From contig NC_053422.1 in assembly GCF_016859285.1 (NCBI RefSeq), forward strand, positions 24,120,001 through 24,184,000: a DNA stretch of 64,000 nt, written 5' to 3'. Of this stretch, positions 9,298-60,577 are shown piece after piece. Made by a program: the position numbers and the translations under genes. Numbering within the stretch: position 1 is the stretch's first letter; every line of letters starts with the position of its first letter. Source of the DNA: Xiphias gladius (lineage: Eukaryota; Chordata; Actinopteri; Istiophoriformes; Xiphiidae). The notes under the pieces are model-generated. The model was given only the letters and a program-made list of their open reading frames with translations. It ran no database searches and was not told the DNA's origin.

Positions 9298-12200
9298 CCA
9301 ATGAGATTTCCAGTGCTGTCTCTAAGAGGGGCCCCTCCTCCACCTCGACCCCAGGGCTGGTGGTTCTTCATGTCAGCCTCCAGCTGGGCCTCATAACGCT
9401 CCCTCTCCTCCCTTTCCAGACGCCTCCTTTCCTGTTGCTCCTGGATCTACAGAACAGTATTTTCAAGGTTACATCAAAATCCTCAAATGACAAAAATTCT
9501 TAAAGCACTCTGTGAAACTTGATTTATCAGGAGATAATTATCCTCGCAGCAGTATCTGCATTTCCCATTGCTTTGTGTAAATACGTTTATCTGCAGCTCA
9601 ACCACTGATGCAGTAAGTAAGCGTTGATTAAAAATATTACATTGCTTTTTAATGAACTGTTTTACTGTCAGACAACTTTTTCAAGATGCATATTGTGTAA
9701 ATCCAAAAGTATTAAAAAACTAGTCCACAGTCATAGACTTTCAATCTTGATGCCAAAAACAACTGATAAATTTTGATATTTACTATAGCGAGTTCATTTT
9801 AACTTTTTGGTTCAACTATCACATGTTGTAAAAGGAAGTCTGCAAGTGCAACTCATGAGCTGTCATTTCTAAAATATATTTACGCCTACTACATGGCTGA
9901 AATAAGGTATCACGGTAACACAATTCCTGACTACGGATCAGGAATCTCAAATACAGAAAAGCCGGCTGTTTATCTGGAGCGACTTTTCAAATAACGGTAG
10001 AATTATGTTCCCACAGCACACGACAAGCAACCAAAGTAAACAGTGTGTAGCTGGTAAAGATTTGTGTTAGCCTGCAATGATCGTGTGCGTTGCCTGGCAA
10101 AAGCTTAGAAGCTAAAAGGAGAAAAGTAGAGAGGGGTTTTTGTTGCTTTATTTAGAGGGTAAAGAGGAGAGATTGGGATGGGATTGAGGTGGCACTGACA
10201 TTAAGCGACACTTTAATATGGGGAGATTTCACAACACTACTGCCGTTTCTATCAACACATTACTGAGGATCTAAGAGCATAACTTAACTTAAACTAAATC
10301 TTTTAGACTGAACTATATCCATTTTACCTTGTTGTAAAGCCCGCTGCTGCCTCTCCTGCAAGCTTCCTGTCAACATATCACATACTAGGATGCAGTGAAT
10401 TAATCTCCTACTCAAAGTTATCTGCCCCTATTTTGCTTTGTACTCCCTGCTACTGCTGTTTCCATCCTAGGACCTGTGCCAAGATGATACTGGTCATACA
10501 CACCCTACTCTACAATAAGAGGTTGCAATGCGTTAAAAAGTGATCTGGCAACCTAAATCACAAATCTGTCACTGTTTTTAACTATCAATGTCCAAAAGCC
10601 TCATCTTTGTGTGTATGCGTTATCCTCAATTTAAAATCAACTTTAAACGTAGACAAGACTCAGTCGTCACACAACAGTACACCTCCGAAATGCTAGGAAA
10701 GAACAAAGAGGTTCTTGTCTGGCATTTAAGTCCACATACATTTTACATTTTGCTCTGCTTTAGTCTCTGCTTGACAAAGATAACTGTTTGGATTTACTCA
10801 TTGATAAAAAACTTGTTGGATATGTTGCCATAATACATTCATTAGATCTAAACATTAGGTTCCTTGTGTTTTAAAGAAAAAATTGTGATTCTATTGGATG
10901 ATGATGGTAGTAGGGGGATTAACCCAATGTAAAGGGAAAAAAAAAAAAATGTTTTTTTAAAATGTAGATTCACAATGAGTTAACCTACCTGTTCTTTGAG
11001 AGCATCTCTGTAGCTAAAAATCCTCTCCCTGGTAGACCTGGATCTCTCTGAAGGGAAAGCCCTGACTTGCGAATCCATAGTAGCAGCCTCACTGCTGGGC
11101 CTGTCAGGAGAGTTGCAGAATCACATAGCTCACATCTGACCATGATTTCTGCTTCACTGTTTTAATGAAAGTGTCCTGTTACCGTGTCTTACTACATCAC
11201 TCTCTCTCACTGAAAAAAAAAAAAACACAAAAAACAAAACCATTTAGCAGGTCCATTATGGCCAATTTATGGGGCATTATTTCTCCCTTAGAAACACAAG
11301 TGTGTGTTAATGTCATGTCCACTTTGTTGGGTTAGAAATTATAAGACGAATTACAAGAGGGTACACAACTGTCCCCTTTTACTTTGCTAGCAAACATATG
11401 CGAGCAAGACACGTGGATGATGGCTGTTAATAATCTTCTGAGCCTCCTCTCCAAGCCAACATACTAAAATTGAAGGGGAGACATTTACTGTATTGGTGGC
11501 TCAGGGAAGCTGCTTCCACTGTGCTGGCTGCGAGGGCTGTGGTTACCAAACTGGCTGGACACAGCTCCCCCCGGTGGTACGTTGAAATAGGACATGGGAA
11601 GCCCAGCACCAGGGACAGACAAATGACCATCTGGACAAAAAAATAAAGAAACACATTAAAATTATGATGATGCTGCTGAATGTAGTGTATTTTGTGCTAC
11701 CAATATATTCACTAAATCTGACGTATACCATAAAAAGAATGCGGTTTTAATCCCTTTTAACAAAGGAAACCTGTGCTTACAGTAGGCCATGTTTGGGTCA
11801 AGCAGGTTTCTGGTGCCATAGCAGTGATGGGGCTCTCCATACGGGCTCCTGTAGGTTTCACTGAGTGTTGCAGGAGGATGTGGAGGGAACAAAGGAATTC
11901 TAGAGACAAAGTTATTTGCAAATCCACAACTTCCTGCAGACGTTATATTTCTGGCTGGTTTCAGTGGTTATTTACGCAGGCAAGAGCTAATCTTGAGCTG
12001 AACATCAATTTATTGTGAAGTTTATTTTTCAAACTAATAAAAATTACAATATGTCTGATGGTGTTCCAACAACTTGACAAAAACTAATTATCAAATCAAA
12101 ACTGCCTCACACTGTCCACACAACTAAAGATATGCAAGTGTTAAAAGCTGAAGGCATACCTGGGAGTCACTGTGGCTCTGGGGAAGGAAAGGGCAGCAGG

Positions 12201-26500: not shown

Positions 26501-29500
26501 GTCGATGCCAATTGGAAAAGAAGGGTCATCAGAGCCCTCCTGTGCCTTAGGTTCCCCTCTGGAAATCCGCTCCTCGGTTTGTTATGGCCAGCTAGTTTCT
26601 TCAGCATTAGAATAATGAGCCATCTACTGTTTTCATATACGGAATTAAGTTATAGTTACCTCAGCAGTAGTAATAGAAGCCCTCCAGTGACCCAGATTTT
26701 CACACCACAAATCTGTCCTGGAGATATGTTGCTGGAGTTCACTGTGTTCTCTCTCCATGGCTCCAATCTCTTCCTTTAGTTTGCTGACTATCTACAAAAA
26801 CACACAAGAGACACATTTTAACCAGCCTGCAAATCATAGTTAAATGAAGAAATGACTTGAAGATGAATGCCATGTAAGGTGGCTTTCACTTCAGAAGATA
26901 CTTTTAAACCTGATCACAAAATTGTCATGAGTGTTGAAGATATTCTTTCATGTTACCCAGATTCAAAAACACAAAGTTTACAAATATACAAGAGCAGGTA
27001 TATGGGCTTTTAAGCAAATCAGACATGCTGTCATTGTTTTGTTTTGTTTATTTTATCGGAAGATTTTGTTACATTTCACTTGACACTTTGACACTGGAGA
27101 CAAATTGAGGGCATCATGCTAGACGGGTTTGGATGTGCAAATTCACTAATTTTAATACCTGCTGCCTGCAGTCAACTTCTGGAGTGAATTCTACCTTTTT
27201 GTCTGGTTTCGGTGCATTCTGGATAGAGCCCAGGGCCTGTCGCTTGTACTCAAGTTTGTCGTAGAGTTGGCTGAGTTTAGTAGCAGCATAGTTGGCCTGC
27301 TCATTGATTCCTTTACTGCCTTCATCACACACTTCCTCTCCTCCATCTAGACCCTGGCACTACATACAGAGGGAAACAAATTATATTTATAAGGACAATA
27401 AAGACGTAATTGCAGACGTGTATAAACCTACAAAAAGAAGTGAAGAAATATGACAAATCTGAGATTTCAAACAGATGAGCTTTCAGAAGTGCTTGCATTT
27501 CTGACCCCTTCGTCCTTTTCCTCAGTGCTACACTGTGACTGGCTGTGCTGCTCGTCTCGTCTGATCAGCCTATCGTAGAGGTCAGAAACCAGGAAGGAGG
27601 GGTAATAGCGTTCTCTCATCGTCTCAGCAACCTAGAGGATGTATGAGAGTAACAGAAATGCTTCATTGCCATTGTAGAACATCTTGACACTGTGAAACAT
27701 AAGTATAATTGTTACAATTGTTACTTGCACCTTTAATAAGAAAAGCTCCACATCGCTTTTCTTGGTTTAGTACCTGTTTTGCCACGAGTTCTTTGACATT
27801 TCTGAGGAAGAAGTTCATTCCCATCCACTATAGCTAGAGATAGTCACAGTTAGTTAGTAACAAAAGGAGCAGTTACCTGTTCCTGTATTCTAACAAAGAC
27901 TTGAGTTCCTCTGTTCCCCACCAGACTCTGTTGGATCTCCTTGAGAAGAACCTTTTCCACTGGAATCTCTCTGCTCTCCACAAAGAATTTCTGGTAGAGT
28001 TCCCCAACGATTTGGGGCACCTCATTCTGTCAAACACATATTAACAAACAAATTAATACTTACTCATGTACTTTTTCCACTGCATTAATATCCTGTGCTA
28101 TACACCTGATGTCACAATACAGAATATCCACTGAACATTTCACTGGCAATACTACAAGTGTGAATAACATTTGCTGACATAATGTGTGTTCAAGGAAAAC
28201 CAGTACCATTATTTCACATTATTGCGTGAAAACAACAGCCAAGCCCAGCACAGGTCAAGCACGCTACTTCTGTAGTAGAAGAATATGCCTCTCATTACTA
28301 TATTACTTTTCCTCTAATACTGAATACTAGTAGCAGTTTGGGGCTAAACCCTCTGGAATGTGTGTGCAGCTCACCTTGTTGGCAGTTTTCAATGTTTCCA
28401 CCAGTTCCCAGAAGCTAATCAGAGCTCTTTTATCAACTCTCTCCATGTAAACTCTGAAATGTTCCCTGTAACCTGGATTACACAAGATGTCATCAAACTG
28501 GAGAATCTGGATGTGGGGGGAAGAGAAAAAAAGATTAAATATAAACTACATGGCACATGCTGTTATCCAAAGTACAAACCCTCAACCAATATCATGTTAA
28601 TGCTTCGCTCTTTAAACAAGAATATGTCATTCAATATAAAAAAAAGGCATCAGAAAAATGGTGCATGGTTTGCTAAGTCCTAACCAGTTCTTTAAAACTT
28701 TCAATATTGGACAGAATATTCTAAAAAAAAAAATATATATTTTCAAATCATTGGGCATCTTGACACATCTCATGGTCAAGTTTTTTCCAAGCAAAGACCC
28801 AAGACATGTATCGCAAATCTACATGACAAGAGTCTTACCTTTTGACTTTGAGGCTCATCGCTGTCATCAGCCCCTCCTTCCTCATTGTTTTCATAGTTTG
28901 GCCCACCGAGTAGGCGGATCCGTTTCTCACATTGTTTCTTAGCAACTGTCAGCTGATTGATATATCGTTTCATATCTCTGGTCCTCAGCAGGTCTGCCTT
29001 CATGGCTGCAGACTCTTTACCTTTTCGCTCTGAGAGAAAGTGGGAGCCAGCTTTGGTCACAGAAATACAATTACTTGGTGTGGAGCCACTGAACCACCAA
29101 GATAAAGTTGCAAGACACTGCTAACCTTGTGTTACACATAGACACTTCCAGCCAAGCACACAGGCTAGTGAAAGCCAATTTCATTATATGTTGTTGATTT
29201 TTACATATGACAATAATTTTGTAATTCGAAAAAAATACTGATTTTGGTTTTCATGTAAAATGAGTACATTTACTGCATATTATAAACTAGTTCCAATTCT
29301 AACTAGGAATAATAAGCTTCAGGTAATATTATATAGAGAAAAGTAATGCATTTTCTCTGTCTGGTTTAAGTGGCTTCATTATTAATCAAGCTACTGTCAG
29401 TCCTTTTGGCTATGGTGTCAAATTCAGCTCATTACTTAAAGGAAAACTAAAAGTCAATATTAATACATAAAAGCATAACTTGTATGAATGAACAAAATTA

Positions 29501-42629: not shown

Positions 42630-44775
42630 CTAGGACGGTGGACCGTGATTAACAGCACTGGGGTCGCCAGTGTGGTCAATTTTGAAGTCAGTGGGTCGCA
42701 ACTTCATGATGCTGGTCTTCAGGGAATACCACCATCCTCTCCAGGTGTACCAAACTACACCATCATCCGTCACTGCACTGTAGTGGCCATTGGGGTAGTA
42801 TATGCCATTAAGATGGGCTGAGTGACACCTCGAGAGAGAGAAGAGGGAATAATACTTAGGTATTTTTTACAGTAATGAATGGCTGTGCACGTCATGCTGT
42901 ATATGTTTGCATCTATGTGCATTTTGGTGTAAGGGTTATACTATCTGACCATGAAACCGTACTTGTTGAACCACCAGCCTCCTTTGTCTTCCTTGGCGCA
43001 GTTTTTTTCGTAGTTATCATTGTCCTGGTCGTAGGTGCTGAATTTCATGCCCTGGTGACTGGCCCACTCTGACACACCAAAATGATGACTTCCAGACAGA
43101 GCATCTCCAGCTGTTCCTACATAGGCTCCAAAGCTAAGGCGGTAGTGATCCTGCAGAGAGAGATATGAGAAGAGATGGACAACTTGCATAAGCTAAAAAT
43201 GAAAGGAAACTTATTGGAAAACTCATTTTCTTGCAGATTTCAAGATGAGAAGATCAATACCCTTCAATCACAGACTAAATATGAAGAAGTCCTTTCAGCA
43301 CACAAGTCCCCTGAAAACCACAACTTTTTGTTTTTACATAGTATAAAACAAGTAGAATCTGTTCATTACTAAGTTTTATGCGCGTTGATAAACATAATTT
43401 TTTATCTTTGGACAGTGCCAGTCTAGCTTCTTCTCCCTACTACCGGTCTTTAAGCTAAGCTAAACTAACCAAACCAGCAATCAGTTTTAGTTTGGGGAAA
43501 GTGGTGCCAATCCTCTCGCGTAACTCTCAGAACTATTCCTTTAAGCCTGTACATAAGGACAAAGATGGAAAATGTAAACGTAAACACATGAAAACAAGAT
43601 GATTATATCCACCAAGTAGTTTATATAGCTATATGTTAGTTACTTTCCTCAGCATAATCAAATATTTGTATTTTTACCCCCCAAAAAACATTAATTTTAA
43701 TACAGTGTATATGGTTTTTCTACATTTTAGTGATCAGTCAACATCAACACCTTTTCATCAGCCACTTTGAAGTTCTTGTACTCAGCATAGCGCTGGTTAC
43801 CATCAAAGTCTTCAAGGTTAATCCTCAGAGAATAATTCCCTGGAACAGACAGATTTAATCAATAAAAGCCTTCTGAAAAAGAGAAAACAAAAATCAATCC
43901 ATATCAACACAACAAGAAGGATATTTAAAACCACCTTTCTCTCAGTTTTATATATATATTTTTTTTCTTGTTTCTTTGTTTGTTTCTGCTTTTTTTTTTA
44001 CTGTTTTTTTCACAGTGATTTTAAAAGAGCTATGGGGCATTTTTGGGCATTACTCAGAGCAGAATTTCCTAAAAACAGCCCTTAGCCCTTAGTTCCCCTA
44101 ACTCCTGAGAAAAATATCTCTATATTAAGCCGCTAACTGCTCCATTATGTTCACTAGCTAGCCGATACCTTTGTCTGCCTGTTTTGGTCTACTGAGCAGG
44201 TGGCATACAGCAGGTTTCTCTGTGATTTTTGCCAAAAACAACTTCCTGCTCCAGCCAGAAATAAGAGCGGCCAGAGCGGACCAAAACAGAATAGCTGTGC
44301 GCCTGAAAACCAAAACAATGAGCAAAAGACTTTAAAAGTCTATCGATCATTCTCTGTGGGCTCATTACTGTGAGCATCATTTTTCATATAGCCCTTTGAT
44401 CCCTTGTCAGCATAAGAAAATTGACTAATGGTTTTTAGAAGTGCTGTTGACCTTGTGCTGTGATGTAATGCAGGTTGTCATTTCCAAGCCAAAACTCTCC
44501 TATTTCTGCATTCATGTCTCCAAAACCATCCTTATACTCCGCCCATGACCTAATAGATAGATAGATAAGATGCATTACTTCTCCCGTGATTTGATCATTT
44601 TACAGTAATAGTTAACAGACTTCATACACACCTGTTAAATGTCTCTGTTCCATTGATCCGTCTCTGTATGACAGTCCAACCACCTCCCTCACTCATATCA
44701 CAGTAGACGCGGATGGTTTTGATTCTGTAGAAACCACTGGATTTGAAGCCAGAGGCGAAGAGCTGGGAGCAGTCT

Positions 44776-44854
<79 letters not shown>

Positions 44855-46819
44855 GCACTCTATGTTTGGTACATTATCTGATTCCTGCTACTGCAGTATG
44901 AGACCTGAAATGCAACACTTTGAGCTTAGTTTTCAAATGCTGTTTCCCAGTTCTGGGACCGAGGACCTAGCTGACCTGTGTACTCGGTGTCCTGGGTCTG
45001 TTCAACTCTTGCCGTATTCTCAATGGCAGGTTGGTTCAACAATTTTAATCTTTGTAAGACGAGTTCCTGTTTCTGAAGCTGGCCCATCAGAAGCTTCCTC
45101 TGTTCCCGCAGATGAGCCACCGCCTCACGGCAAATGTCTGACGCCTGGACACACACACACACACACACCACACATTGTACACGCACAATTTGTATTGCTA
45201 TATTTGTGAGGATCTTCATTCATGTTCATTAACTCATTCTGAGATAAAATTGTATAGAATGAAACAAATGCATACAGTAATAACTAGATTGGCACTTAGG
45301 CGACACATACCTCTGACAAGACCAATGTCATACAACATACACCAGACTTTAGATAAAAAAATTTAAATTCATAGTAAATGATCCAGATCTGCCCCAAAAT
45401 GTAATGGGTTCTTTCTTGGCCCACGCCCCATTCCTCCAACAAGTTCAGTGCAAAGCGGTTCAGTACTTTTTGCATAATCCTCCTGATAAACAAACAGACG
45501 CGGGTGAAAAACAGAACCTTCTTGGCGGAGATAATAAAGAAACATAGCGGTCTGAAAACATAGAAGAAAACAACAAAATTTCTAGTTATTTATTTCATCT
45601 GTAAAGTACTGATACTTTTTCCAAGGAATTGTGGAAAATTTGGATACAGCAAGTTGGATCAGTGTTGTATGCTATCAGTCAGCAACAGATTATTGAAACT
45701 GTTACACTACAGAATGTTTCATAGATCATTACTTTTACCCTCACAGCAGCAAGCCAAAGTTTCATCTTTGTAACAGTAACTTAAAACTAGCAGACCCCAG
45801 CACTGATCTAACCTTAAACCCAAGATCTAACCCTCGACCTAACTTTAAAAGAATATTTTGACATGTTTGGAAATATACTTATTTGCTTTCTTGCAAAGAG
45901 TTAGATGAAAAGATCGATACCACTCTCATGCAGTATCGGTCTGGTGGATATAAGCCGACAACCAGCAGCCAGCTAGCTTTGCTTAGCATAAAGAATGGAA
46001 ACGGCCAGCCTGGCTCTGTCCAAAGGTAACAAAATCCACCTCCCAGCTCATCTGAAGCTCACCAATTACCTCGTGATAACTTGTTTGTTTAATCCATACA
46101 AGAAAGTATACTAAAGGTATTGCACAAAACCATTTCTTGGCCGTAGGCAGTCTTTGCTGGTTGCTGTCTGGCAACTTTACGGTGGCAACACAAACAAACA
46201 AGATACAACATATGAAATAGTGAGCTTTAGCCATGCCAGTAGGTGACTTTTGCCATCTTTGGGCAGAGCCAGGCTAGCCGTTTTCCCCTGTTTCCAGTCT
46301 ATATATGCTAAGATAAGCTAGCCAACAGCTGGCTGTAGTTTGTTATTTAACGTACATATATGAGAGTGGTATCAATCTTCCTTTCGTCCAAACTGTTAAA
46401 TCAGAGTGAGTAGCCTACTTCAAAAGAAACTAAACTTGGACATTTGTAAGTGTCCAAAGTAAAATGGCACTTTTGCTGGCATTAGTCCTGCAACTTTGAA
46501 CAGACTCTAAAGACAATTAATGTACCTCTCAACTACATCCCTCTGTCCCTCTAAATATATTGTGTTTTAGTGCTAGTTGGGCCTACCTAAATTCAGCAAT
46601 TCTACACATGTAGATCAGCTACAATGACAAGCACATTTGGACTGGCATAAACACACACAAAATAAGGTTGAGGGAATTTGTGGCTTCGAATTGAAATATC
46701 TCCAAATTAAATGCAAAACAGCAAGGCTAACTGCTTCTTTGCAGAGTACTTACACAGAGAGATTGAGAGCAAGCTATGATGACTATCAGTCCTGTGAGCA
46801 GCTGCAGTGGGTCCTTCAT
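42630..46819 (-). CDS. fgl1: fgl1: fibrinogen-like protein 1 (hepassocin)
   Basis: Secreted fibrinogen-related protein; in mammals a liver-derived growth factor and LAG-3 ligand. Exons: 46819-46754, 45144-44976, 44773-44632, 44549-44452, 43839-43751, 43150-42963, 42828-42630. Phases close to 951 nt (316 aa; human about 312). Exon 1 encodes a signal peptide (Met-Lys-Asp then [15 protein letters not shown]). Exon 2 encodes a short coiled coil ([20 protein letters not shown], about 30-65). The fibrinogen-like domain starts [10 protein letters not shown] (79) and includes [17 protein letters not shown], the calcium-site-like [17 protein letters not shown] across the last junction and [17 protein letters not shown]. 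The donor after 42963 (AACAA|GTACGG) was chosen because it restores the NKCH cysteine. Compared with the remembered human sequence a few residues are missing just before VYCDM. The C-terminus is slightly extended. Confidence 0.93.
44020..44395. repeat. Dispersed SINE-like repeat, copy 1
   Basis: Shares ordered blocks with 57890-58310 and 59810-60150: GAGAAAAATATCT, CTAACTGCTCCATTATGTTC, TTTGTCTGCC, GCAGGTTTCTCTGTGATTTT, ACCAAAACAATGAGC, TCTGTGGGCTCATTACTGTG. It lies in an fgl1 intron. Confidence 0.6.
44777..44849. repeat. CA microsatellite
   Basis: About 36 AC units starting 4 bp from the acceptor of fgl1 exon 44773-44632; in the sense strand the acceptor reads (TG)n TCAG. Confidence 0.95.
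45149..45170. repeat. Short CA microsatellite
   Basis: About 10 AC units; in the sense strand it runs directly into the acceptor TCCAG of fgl1 exon 45144-44976. Confidence 0.85.
45300..45530 (-). repeat. Inverted repeat arm A beside fgl1
   Basis: Reverse complement of 47450-47660. Shared blocks include CATACAACATACACCAGACT, CAGATCTGCCCCAAAATGTA, GGCCCACGCCCCATTCCTCC and GTGCAAAGCGGTTCAGTACT. Both arms translate to similar but meaningless peptides. The repeat is interspersed; its family is not certain. Confidence 0.7.
45845..46400. mobile_element. Palindromic foldback element (GCTAAGCTAAGC family)
   Basis: The outer arms are imperfect complements. The left arm has TCGATACCACTCTCATGCAG, GCTTAGCATAAAG and CGGCCAGCCTGGCTCTG. 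The right arm has GCCAGGCTAGCCG, TATGCTAAGATAAGC and ATGAGAGTGGTATCAATCTT. Between them is noncoding DNA. Fragments of the same family occur at about 338-385, 43420-43530 and 62340-62600. It lies in the first fgl1 intron. Confidence 0.65.
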
Positions 46820-48465: not shown

Positions 48466-48578
<113 letters not shown>

Positions 48579-49261
48579 CAAAAGCATTCAAAATCAGTTT
48601 TTGTCACCCACTGTGTCACTGACCTTCTCAACCCACTACAACTAGAGTTGAATTCACTGACATTCATGCATTCAGGCAGCAAAGGTTCAACAGACTGCCA
48701 GCAGCCATATTTATTCATATTTTATTAAAAGAGCTGTGGCAATTAAATCAGCACTTTCCCAAAAGGTCTTCATATTTACACATTTGGCAAAGCAGCAAAT
48801 ACAACGTGAGAAAGTCGACCTGACATTTCAGCTACAGATGCTAAAACACATTAGTTCTAACCAAATAGGGCAAAAGTATTCAAGTATTTTTGCAAGATGG
48901 TGTATGACTTTACCATCTTTACCAGACATCTCACTTGGACCAGTGCTGTAACTGTGACTGGATTCCATGGTTTGTCGCGATAACGTAGTACCGGAACATT
49001 TCTCACAATGTGGTGATAGGTTATTTATACAAAGAACTGCCCATACTTAGCCTGTTCACTTCCATCATGCATAATGTGTTTCAGAGACCAGTTAATGCTT
49101 GATATCTGCACCAATATGTTAATTAAATGTCAGATGCTGCCTGCTACTTTCAGCCTCTCTGTGAAACGTTAATACTTCCAAATGAGCTTTTGTGCCTTCA
49201 GAATCAACATTATCACATTATCACTCATTATCACCTCCACATTGTCTGTCGAGACCCGACT

Positions 49262-49576
49262 TCAGGCGTCTAAGTCAGACTTCCCCTGCTTGCTCTGAGC
49301 GTCTCTCCTCCTGGTTACGGCTTTATCGGCCTTTCCTGCGCAAAGAAGAGAAGAGAAGAGTGGTGCTGAGTAAGTAATACCGTTACTGCCGTCTTTATCC
49401 TCATCATTACTACCACAAATAGGATACGACTGATTTTGTACCTCCTTGTGATAGTCTAAAAATAAAACATCACCTTTGGTATCCAGTGACTGTGTCTGCT
49501 GCGAGGACTCAGGATCATCTGGTTGAGCATCATCAGACTTCTTGTAGTAATACTGTTGATCAGGAGGCCCGAACCG
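49262..49576 (-). pseudogene. Duplicated tail exons of the calnexin-tail-like gene
   Basis: 49576-49474 and 49335-49262 repeat the last two exons of the gene at 50431-51885 with intact splice sites and frame, shifted by 1169 bp. The transmembrane and signal exons are not duplicated. The copy could act as an alternative 3' end or be dead. It is part of the direct repeat at 48575-49742. Confidence 0.6.
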
Positions 49577-49617
49577 CTACACACAAACAAACACACAATT
49601 GGTCTTTTTGTGGCTGT

Positions 49618-49746
<129 letters not shown>

Positions 49747-49877
49747 CAAAAGCATTCAAAATCAGTTTTTGTCACCCACTGTGTCACTGACCTTCTCAAC
49801 CCACTACAACTAGAGTTGAATTCACTGACATTCATGCATTCAGGCAGCAAAGGTTCAACAGACTGCCAGCAGCCATA

Positions 49878-49897
49878 TTTATTCATATTTTATTAAA
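49878..49897 (-). terminator. Candidate poly(A) signals of the calnexin-tail-like gene
   Basis: Two AATAAA hexamers on the minus strand about 540-550 bp after the stop codon at 50431; the same pair recurs at about 48710-48728 in the duplicate. Confidence 0.35.
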
Positions 49898-50430
49898 AGA
49901 GCTGTGGCAATTAAATCAGCACTTTCCCAAAAGGTCTTCATATTTACACATTTGGCAAAGCAGCAAATACAACGTGAGAAAGTCGACCTGACATTTCAGC
50001 TACAGATGCTAAAACACATTAGTTCTAACCAAATAGGGCAAAAGTATTCAAGTATTTTTGCAAGATGGTGTATGACTTTACCATCTTTACCAGACATCTC
50101 ACTTGGACCAGTGCTGTAACTGTGACTGGATTCCATGGTTTGTCTCGATAACGTAGTACCGGAACATTTCTCAGAATGTGGTGATAGGTTATTTATACAA
50201 AGAACTGCCCACACTTAAACCTGTTCACTTCCATCATGCATAATGTGTTTCAGAGACCAGTTAATGCTTGATATCTGCACCAATATGTTAATTAAATGTC
50301 AGATGCTGCCTGCTACTTTCAGCCTCTCTGTGAAACATTAATACTTCCAAATGAGCTTTTGTGCCTTCAGAATCAACATTATCACATTATCACTCATTAT
50401 CACCTCCACATTGTCTGTTGAGACCCGACT

Positions 50431-50786
50431 TCAGGCGTCTAAGTCAGACTTCCCCTGCTTGCTCTGAGCGTCTCTCCTCCTGGTTACGGCTTTATCGGCC
50501 TTTCCTGCGCAAAGAAGAGAAGAGAAGAGTGGTGCTGAGTAAGTAATACCGTTACTGCCGTCTTTATCCTCATCATTACTACCACAAATAGGATACGACT
50601 GATTTTGTACCTCCTTGTGATAGTCTAAAAATAAAACATCACCTTTGGTATCCAGTGACTGTGTCTGCTGCGAGGACTCAGGATCATCTGGTTGAGCATC
50701 ATCAGACTTCTTGTAGTAATACTGTTGATCAGGAGGCCCGAACCGCTACACACAAACAAACACACAATTGGTCTTTTTGTGGCTGT

Positions 50787-50884
<98 letters not shown>

Positions 50885-51885
50885 CACACACAAGCCTACT
50901 GTACCTTGTCAGGCCACATGAAGCTAATGAAGAGAATGATGGGAAGTCCAACAGTGAAGACATAGACACTCCAGAGCCAGGGACGCTGGTGGGTGGCCAA
51001 AAGGAGGCTCTCTATAATACCCGGCTACAATACATAAATAGAAGTGCAAATACTTTTCAGAAGGGAATATACTGGAGTTTTTTTGTTTTTCCAAAAAAAA
51101 AAAAAAAAGGAATTGAGAAGGAAAAGCATTCAGGAGGGAGACCATAAAAGCTACAGGCAGCACGCTTGATCATGCTGTCATGTATTTATGTACATTTATA
51201 TATCCAAGCACTAGGTGGTGTATGAGTATTGCATGCGTGGAGACTGAAGAAACTAGAAACAGGTGTTGTTGCTTGGGGAAGCATAGTTTTTGATCTCCCT
51301 CTTGCTCAGTGTGTAACGTCCGTTCACAAGCAACATCTTGAATTACTCTGCTATATGCGTTGTATGACTGTAAGTCCGTGCTGGGGAACAGTAAAGAAAT
51401 GTATCCTGTTCTGGTCTGGTCTTGTAGGACCCTGAATATGGGATTATGGAGCAATATCTGGGAGTTTAGACTTCACCTACGTTTTGAACTCTAATGGCTG
51501 ATTTTGACACTGTTTTTTCAAGCATTTGTCTGAAAGATAGTCAGTATTTACCTTTGCTTTAATGTATGTCCATCAATTTATTGGTATAATATTGTTCTTA
51601 CACAGTGTCTCTTTGTTAATTGTTTTACAATTAATTGACTCTTTTCCCTTTTTTATTGTTTGTTGTATGCATGTTCACTGTGTAGGACATCAATGAAGAT
51701 TTTAAAAAGAAAAAATATATATGCAAAATATATTATCTTTTTTATCTATCTAAAACAGTGTTTATCAGATTTAGTTTATTCAAAATGAAAAGTGCAATAA
51801 AACTCGGTGATACCTCTGCTGCAGCAGCCATTGGTGTCACACTGGCTACCAGCGTCACACACAGCAACACAAAGCTGATCTCCAT
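50431..51885 (-). CDS. Small calnexin/calmegin-tail-like ER membrane protein lacking the lumenal domain
   Basis: Predicted exons: 51885-51814 (signal peptide, Met-Glu-Ile-Ser then FVLLCVTLVASVTPMAAAA), 51024-50905 (transmembrane), 50745-50643 and 50504-50431 (cytosolic tail, stop TGA). Phases close to 369 nt (122 aa). Exon 2 starts at Pro-Gly as in calnexins. It contains RPWLWSVYVFTVGLPIILF, matching the calnexin/calmegin membrane segment, and WPDK as in calmegin. The next exon has YYYKKSDDAQPDDPE, matching the conserved YKKTD..QPD tail start. The end is basic (VTRRRDAQ), where calnexins carry Arg-rich ER-retention signals. Calnexins are about 590-610 aa; their sugar-binding and P-domain exons were looked for in 51025-51813 and 51886-53785 and not seen. 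It may be a real micro-gene, a decayed calmegin copy, or the end of a rearranged gene. The two tail exons recur at 49262-49576. Confidence 0.55.
50788..50883. repeat. CA microsatellite (right border of duplication)
   Basis: About 48 CA units between the transmembrane exon and the tail exon of the calnexin-tail-like gene. Confidence 0.95.
51025..51813. other. Intron of the calnexin-tail-like gene, no lumenal exons
   Basis: Read in all three minus-strand frames for calnexin lumenal motifs (KPEDWD-type P-domain repeats, lectin strands); none was seen. AT-rich, with an A16 tract near 51094-51109. Confidence 0.5.
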
Positions 51886-52285: not shown

Positions 52286-52295
52286 CCTTTTTATA
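52286..52295 (-). promoter_or_regulatory. TATA box upstream of the calnexin-tail-like gene
   Basis: TATAAAAAGG on the minus strand, about 400 bp upstream of the predicted ATG (51885). An acceptor TTTCAG|AC sits directly before that ATG, so a noncoding first exon starting near 52260 would fit. A strongly pyrimidine-rich sense stretch (about 52080-52250) follows. Confidence 0.35.

Positions 52296-53785: not shown

Positions 53786-60577
<6,792 letters not shown>

Follow-up and report, generated by a model that had tools for sequence, protein, structure and literature searches.

Considering that calnexin is, in textbook terms, a lumenal lectin chaperone, the locus described here raises the question of whether a gene of this family can exist without the lumenal part, and what such a gene would still encode. 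It lies on the minus strand of a window (the whole stretch of 64,000 nucleotides that was analysed), which corresponds to C23:24,120,001-24,184,000 of the 690.8-Mb Xiphias gladius assembly. The site is flanked by a cyclic-nucleotide-gated channel gene and by a fibrinogen-C gene. The former comprises a frame at 54006-54512, for which CNGA2 is the best solved-structure match (E 1.6e-53), a second stretch (56457-56999) scoring above the ion-channel Pfam cut-off and a third (57041-57445) falling narrowly below it. The latter comprises frames at 42944-43192 and 44625-44873; its fibrinogen-C domain was recovered, while the gene name fgl1 is that of the preliminary description itself. Elsewhere in the window, 28779-29120 on the minus strand gives a Pfam match to an Isy1-like splicing family, below the cut-off (E 5e-5).

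Re-reading of the exons showed the coordinates, the frame and the 122-residue model of the preliminary description to be correct. The open frame runs through four exons from 51885 to 50431 on the minus strand (369 nt, corresponding to 122 codons and the stop TGA), which are separated by three introns with GT and AG ends in phases 0, 0 and 1. All seven splice dinucleotides are intact, counting the acceptor ahead of the ATG, and the 122 codons are free of stops and frameshifts. No N is present anywhere in the window, intron 1 being continuous sequence. The gene model contains the following elements:

52290 to 52295, minus strand: TATA-like box (TATAAA), approximately 410 nt upstream of the ATG, a putative promoter element
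51814 to 51885, minus strand: exon 1, MEISFVLLCVTLVASVTPMAAAAE, signal-peptide-like, 24 codons, ending in phase 0, with a weak donor (GTATCA) and an acceptor (tttcag) 2 nt before the ATG
51025 to 51813, minus strand: intron 1, 789 bp, located where the full-length paralogues hold their lumenal exons, and containing three AATAAA and one ATTAAA
50905 to 51024, minus strand: exon 2, PGIIESLLLATHQRPWLWSVYVFTVGLPIILFISFMWPDK, predicted lumenal juxtamembrane stretch and membrane helix, 40 codons, phase 0/0
50643 to 50745, minus strand: exon 3 (copy B), RFGPPDQQYYYKKSDDAQPDDPESSQQTQSLDTK(G), predicted cytosolic tail, phase 0 to 1, with YKK-S-D...QPD as against YKKTD..QPD in canx
50431 to 50504, minus strand: exon 4 (copy B), KADKAVTRRRDAQSKQGKSDLDA and the stop, with a basic cluster comparable by eye to the ends of canx (RKVRRD) and clgn (RKRRVRKD)

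When the whole model was searched against solved structures using phmmer, calnexin (PDB 8rjc) was the sole match up to E 10 (E 1.8e-14, residues 21-115), and exons 2 and 3 alone retrieved calnexin at E 4e-11; the four Pfam matches of the 122-residue model are all under the cut-off and all concern unrelated membrane families. A search of the swordfish's own genome with the membrane exon (eight matches in all, seven candidates scored) returned, below E 1e-5, the exon itself and the loci C15:28,119,301 (54%, 1.3e-7) and C23:1,221,599 (48%, 5.5e-6), followed by the two copies of each tail exon, in which one TAG is counted inside since the match extends one codon into the acceptor, and by a single match at E 0.4. 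The two paralogous loci, which we take to be clgn (C15:28.12 Mb) and canx (C23:1.21 Mb) from their helix and tail residues rather than from annotation, are full-length genes residing in the same genome as the short gene.

The membrane exon of the short gene is identical to that of clgn at 22 of 39 residues and to that of canx at 19 of 40, and keeps 16 of the 24 residues common to both, including RPWLW and the helix proline. By these counts it is a little nearer to clgn, with which it further shares VGLP and WP-K, the difference being too small for firm placement. In all three genes this exon starts at Pro-Gly in phase 0, as had been noted beforehand for the calnexin family, and ends with Lys in phase 0; the fit of the exon phases, also noted, extends to the boundaries, which are the same as those of own-genome canx and clgn. 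The first tail exon proceeds from phase 0 to phase 1 in both canx and the short gene. It carries the motif YKK-x-D, followed as in canx by QPD, and the canx tail exon is matched by tblastn at both tail copies in the window with an E-value (0.014) that is weak by itself. The search for relatives among prokaryote contigs (217 stretches) and viral contigs (30 pattern stretches) yielded none that was confirmed, as expected for an animal gene.

The lectin and P domains, which the preliminary description had reported to be absent, were looked for in three ways and found by none. Firstly, PF00262 gave 24 matches genome-wide at E<=0.001 (best candidates scored), which fall at five places, namely canx, clgn and three calreticulin-type genes (C6:16.95, C6:29.65 and C14:20.33 Mb), and none of which is at this locus. 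Calreticulins are soluble lumenal proteins; no likeness of the short gene to these three genes was seen, their relationship being only via calnexin, and the short gene retains just the part that calreticulins lack. Secondly, each of the 16 peptides from the lumenal exons of canx and clgn matched the other paralogue in a tblastn control (E 2e-35 to 2e-6), while the same 16 peptides found nothing credible in the window among the best 60 matches listed (best E 0.02, 42 kb away), where the membrane exons of canx and clgn scored 5e-14 and 2e-11. Acidic tail peptides hit, by chance, an acidic frame at about 8 kb, and the best of these hits (E 0.002) beats the true tail match. Thirdly, a scan of intron 1 for single internal exons in phase 0 found none within the thresholds applied, and no remnant of a lumenal exon was seen in this intron. 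A hidden set of lumenal exons, be it upstream, within intron 1 or at another place of the assembly, is rejected as far as the genome, tblastn and intron scans reach.

As far as can be read from its exons, the locus therefore appears to be a third member of the calnexin family, one that lacks the lectin and P domains. In canx and clgn both introns bounding the lumenal block are in phase 0, so that loss of the entire block keeps the frame. Exon 1 finishes with GCTGCTGCAGCAGAG, which is similar to GCAGCAGAGGGCGCTGCTGAG, the end of the exon that directly precedes the membrane exon in canx; it is speculation that two exons were fused by a single deletion, which would account for this likeness. As a separate observation, a long intron of own-genome canx (L021 6600-7300) carries, by eye, apparent Tc1/mariner-like transposase frames.

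The explanation that competes most seriously with a functional short gene is that of a decaying partial gene, i.e. an old calnexin-family duplicate which lost its lumenal part recently, has ceased to be needed and is still open for lack of time, its exons 3 and 4 having later been doubled by CA-repeat recombination. We consider this unlikely, while granting it substantial weight. Such decay would suit the membrane exon being the most diverged of the three, with a dN of 0.54 to canx and 0.41 to clgn as compared with 0.25 between canx and clgn. Among the membrane-exon sites that are the same in canx and clgn, 10/27 first, 5/34 second and 12/19 third positions are different in the short gene (hypergeometric p of 0.003 for third and 0.002 for second positions). 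This pattern fits a long history as a protein, in which the time before the lumenal loss and the fast third positions are included. Neutral drift was then simulated from an intact start, with indels at 0.1 per substitution and CpG sites treated like any other: the probability that start, frame and splice dinucleotides all stay intact was 0.28 at 0.02 substitutions/site, 0.047 at 0.05 and 0.003 at 0.1, and from 0.2 substitutions/site up none of 4000 was intact. A decaying frame would accordingly survive drift of 0.02-0.05 substitutions/site with P 0.28-0.05, and the low survival overall implies that constraint persists or ended recently, as seen in one genome. Against decay stand the 122 codons and three introns without stop, frameshift or broken splice dinucleotide, as well as an intron 1 devoid of the lumenal relics that a recent loss might leave.

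The tail also bears on this alternative, since decay would account for the loss of its cysteines, of its acidic tract and of the C-terminal place of its basic motif. Past the helix the short gene reads FISFMWPDK, compared to FCC in canx and FCW in clgn, so that the juxtamembrane cysteines, including the CC pair of canx, are absent, and the entire tail of 58 residues is without Cys. It is not a long acidic tail: D and E together number 11 in 58 with a single Glu, versus 42 in 99 with 33 Glu in canx, the tail of clgn likewise being Glu-rich. The basic cluster AVTRRRD, a candidate counterpart of the Arg/Lys ER retention motif found at the C terminus in this family, is internal, with 12 residues between it and the end, whereas canx and clgn terminate with their respective basic motifs.

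The tail exons are moreover duplicated in tandem, a feature absent from the preliminary description and in keeping with decay. The intervals 48468-49722 and 49636-50892 are 99.36% identical over 1257 bp, both end in CA repeats and they overlap in the CA tract. The duplicated region is arranged as follows:

49636 to 50892, minus strand: duplication copy B, with exons 3 and 4, their 3' flank and AATAAA signals
49878 to 49894, minus strand: two AATAAA (49894 and 49883), 3' of the copy B exons and upstream of the copy A exons
48468 to 49722, minus strand: duplication copy A, with a second exon 3 (49474-49576) and a second exon 4 (49262-49335), and no second membrane exon

Aligned over 1039 bases, the two copies differ by six substitutions and a single-base gap, and these seven differences are all located 3' of the stop; exons 3 and 4 and the intervening intron are identical. 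The copy A exons are probably unused, because the AATAAA at 49894 and 49883 could end the transcript earlier, although such signals alone prove little, given that three also occur in intron 1.

Next, the membrane and tail exons may be genuine and exon 1 at 51885 may not be their partner, the true first exon being elsewhere or non-existent; we hold this to be improbable. Exon 1 was not credibly matched in tblastn by the first-exon peptides of canx or clgn, and these two in turn gave no credible match between canx and clgn (E 0.14 and 0.22). The donor of exon 1 is weak, at a score of -0.9 that 14.3% of the GT sites of the window reach, and that of the membrane exon is modest (0.8, with 6.5% as high), canx GTACCA and clgn GTACTA being similar by eye. 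The stretch from the TATA-like box to exon 1 yielded no good donor for a 5'UTR intron (two sites reach 0.8), and without such an intron two in-frame ATGs lie upstream of exon 1.

What counts against a different first exon is the acceptor adjoining the ATG, the phase 0 end, the strong hydrophobic core and the rarity of such exons. The first coding exon begins 3 nt past the acceptor in canx, 0 nt in clgn and 2 nt in the short gene, and ends in phase 0 in all; the hydrophobic core scores 3.04 in exon 1 compared to 2.92 in canx and 2.85 in clgn. Exon 1 thus fits a predicted signal peptide in composition, position and phase, without similarity to the signal exons of canx and clgn. Scans of the window employed approximate textbook tables of splice-site frequencies. 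A stricter scan with donor and hydrophobicity limits returned no candidate and missed exon 1 also, because of the weak donor of the latter. The limits of a subsequent relaxed scan were chosen to admit exon 1 (ATG <=3 nt from an acceptor, a hydrophobic core and a phase-0 donor), and it found two candidates in 128 strand-kb, one of them being exon 1, or three with a laxer acceptor limit, as against none in 30 one-strand Markov control sequences of 64 kb. The only other candidate at the same limits, at 11630 on the minus strand, encodes 28 residues and has a strong acceptor upstream.

An assembly artefact, in which intron 1 would have been deprived of lumenal exons or the duplicated tail would be an unresolved haplotype, is very improbable as an explanation of the locus. 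Its main suspect is the duplication, which may be real or an assembly error, considering that copies 99.4% alike with long CA tracts at their ends represent a typical error site. It is opposed by a window without N, by the continuity of intron 1 and by the finding that the 24 PF00262 matches (best candidates scored) include none elsewhere that would belong to the lumenal part of a third gene of calnexin type. Finally, a chance resemblance of exons 2 and 3 is rejected by their phmmer calnexin matches and their own-genome matches, a processed retrocopy by the retained introns, and a recent copy from elsewhere by the fact that 50900-52400 matches its own place only, in a search which leaves out simple repeats as well as highly frequent words and does not thereby prove a single copy.

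The account that we favour is that of a third calnexin-family gene which lost its lumenal part and encodes a small ER membrane protein acting through its helix, and we judge its chances, taken as one account, to be about even. The gene would have dropped every exon between its first coding exon and its membrane exon. If transcribed, it would probably yield a small type I ER membrane protein, consisting of a cleavable signal peptide, about 14 lumenal residues, the calnexin helix with its mid-helix proline and the 58-residue tail, and selection may have continued to act on it after the loss. A single-sequence AlphaFold2 model (mean pLDDT 61.9; helices at 2-20, 27-37 and 39-60; tail mostly unstructured) is too weak for argument. 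Such a product cannot be a lectin chaperone. Most likely, its helix would work in the bilayer, either by binding client transmembrane segments or by taking up the partners that bind the helices of canx and clgn, which it would thereby regulate or compete with.

Published work on calnexin itself is of relevance to such helix-based action. When the mid-helix proline of calnexin is replaced, ribosome-translocon association is impaired (PMC9913998). Calnexin is further reported to recognise misfolded membrane segments via residues in its own helix (PMC11513070), a source which also states that male fertility in mice depends on calmegin, and TRAP gamma is bound by a membrane helix and a cytosolic helix that have provisionally been assigned to calnexin (PMC11186639). 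In published work, too, the calnexin cysteines are tied to palmitoylation, stability and translocon/TRAP association (PMC9913998, PMC4765739, PMC11186639). Unpalmitoylated calnexin is short-lived, with a modelled 5 h as compared with 46 h when doubly modified (PMC4765739), and binding to the translocon or TRAP is said to require palmitoylation (PMC11186639, PMC9913998). The short gene has no membrane-near cysteine, and simple competition with calnexin at TRAP is therefore less likely than at first sight. The preliminary description is hence upheld where it proposed a calnexin-family gene made of signal peptide, anchor and tail without lectin or P domain, as supported by the own-genome comparison, the phases and the lumenal search. 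Its suggestion that the product binds tail partners or competes for ER sorting loses weight, since many hallmarks of the calnexin tail are gone (no juxtamembrane Cys, one Glu in 58, the basic cluster internal).

The short gene descends from the calnexin family, and it should not be named calnexin, since the lumenal features that define this family were not found in it. In the titles and abstract starts listed from the open-licence PMC literature, no calnexin-family gene without a lumenal domain was found, which is weak evidence of novelty. We tentatively propose, somewhat short of expecting it, that the short gene belongs to a conserved lumenless form of calnexin, that is, a vertebrate ER microprotein in which only the calnexin membrane helix and the juxtamembrane tail are kept. 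If this holds true, selection can act on the helix for a function separable from the lectin cycle, be it the binding of clients within the membrane or the control of canx and clgn. A gene composed of the helix and the near tail would represent a natural deletion construct, by which the functions of the calnexin helix become directly testable. Should the locus be a relic, it would still record how a chaperone domain was lost through frame-keeping exon loss.
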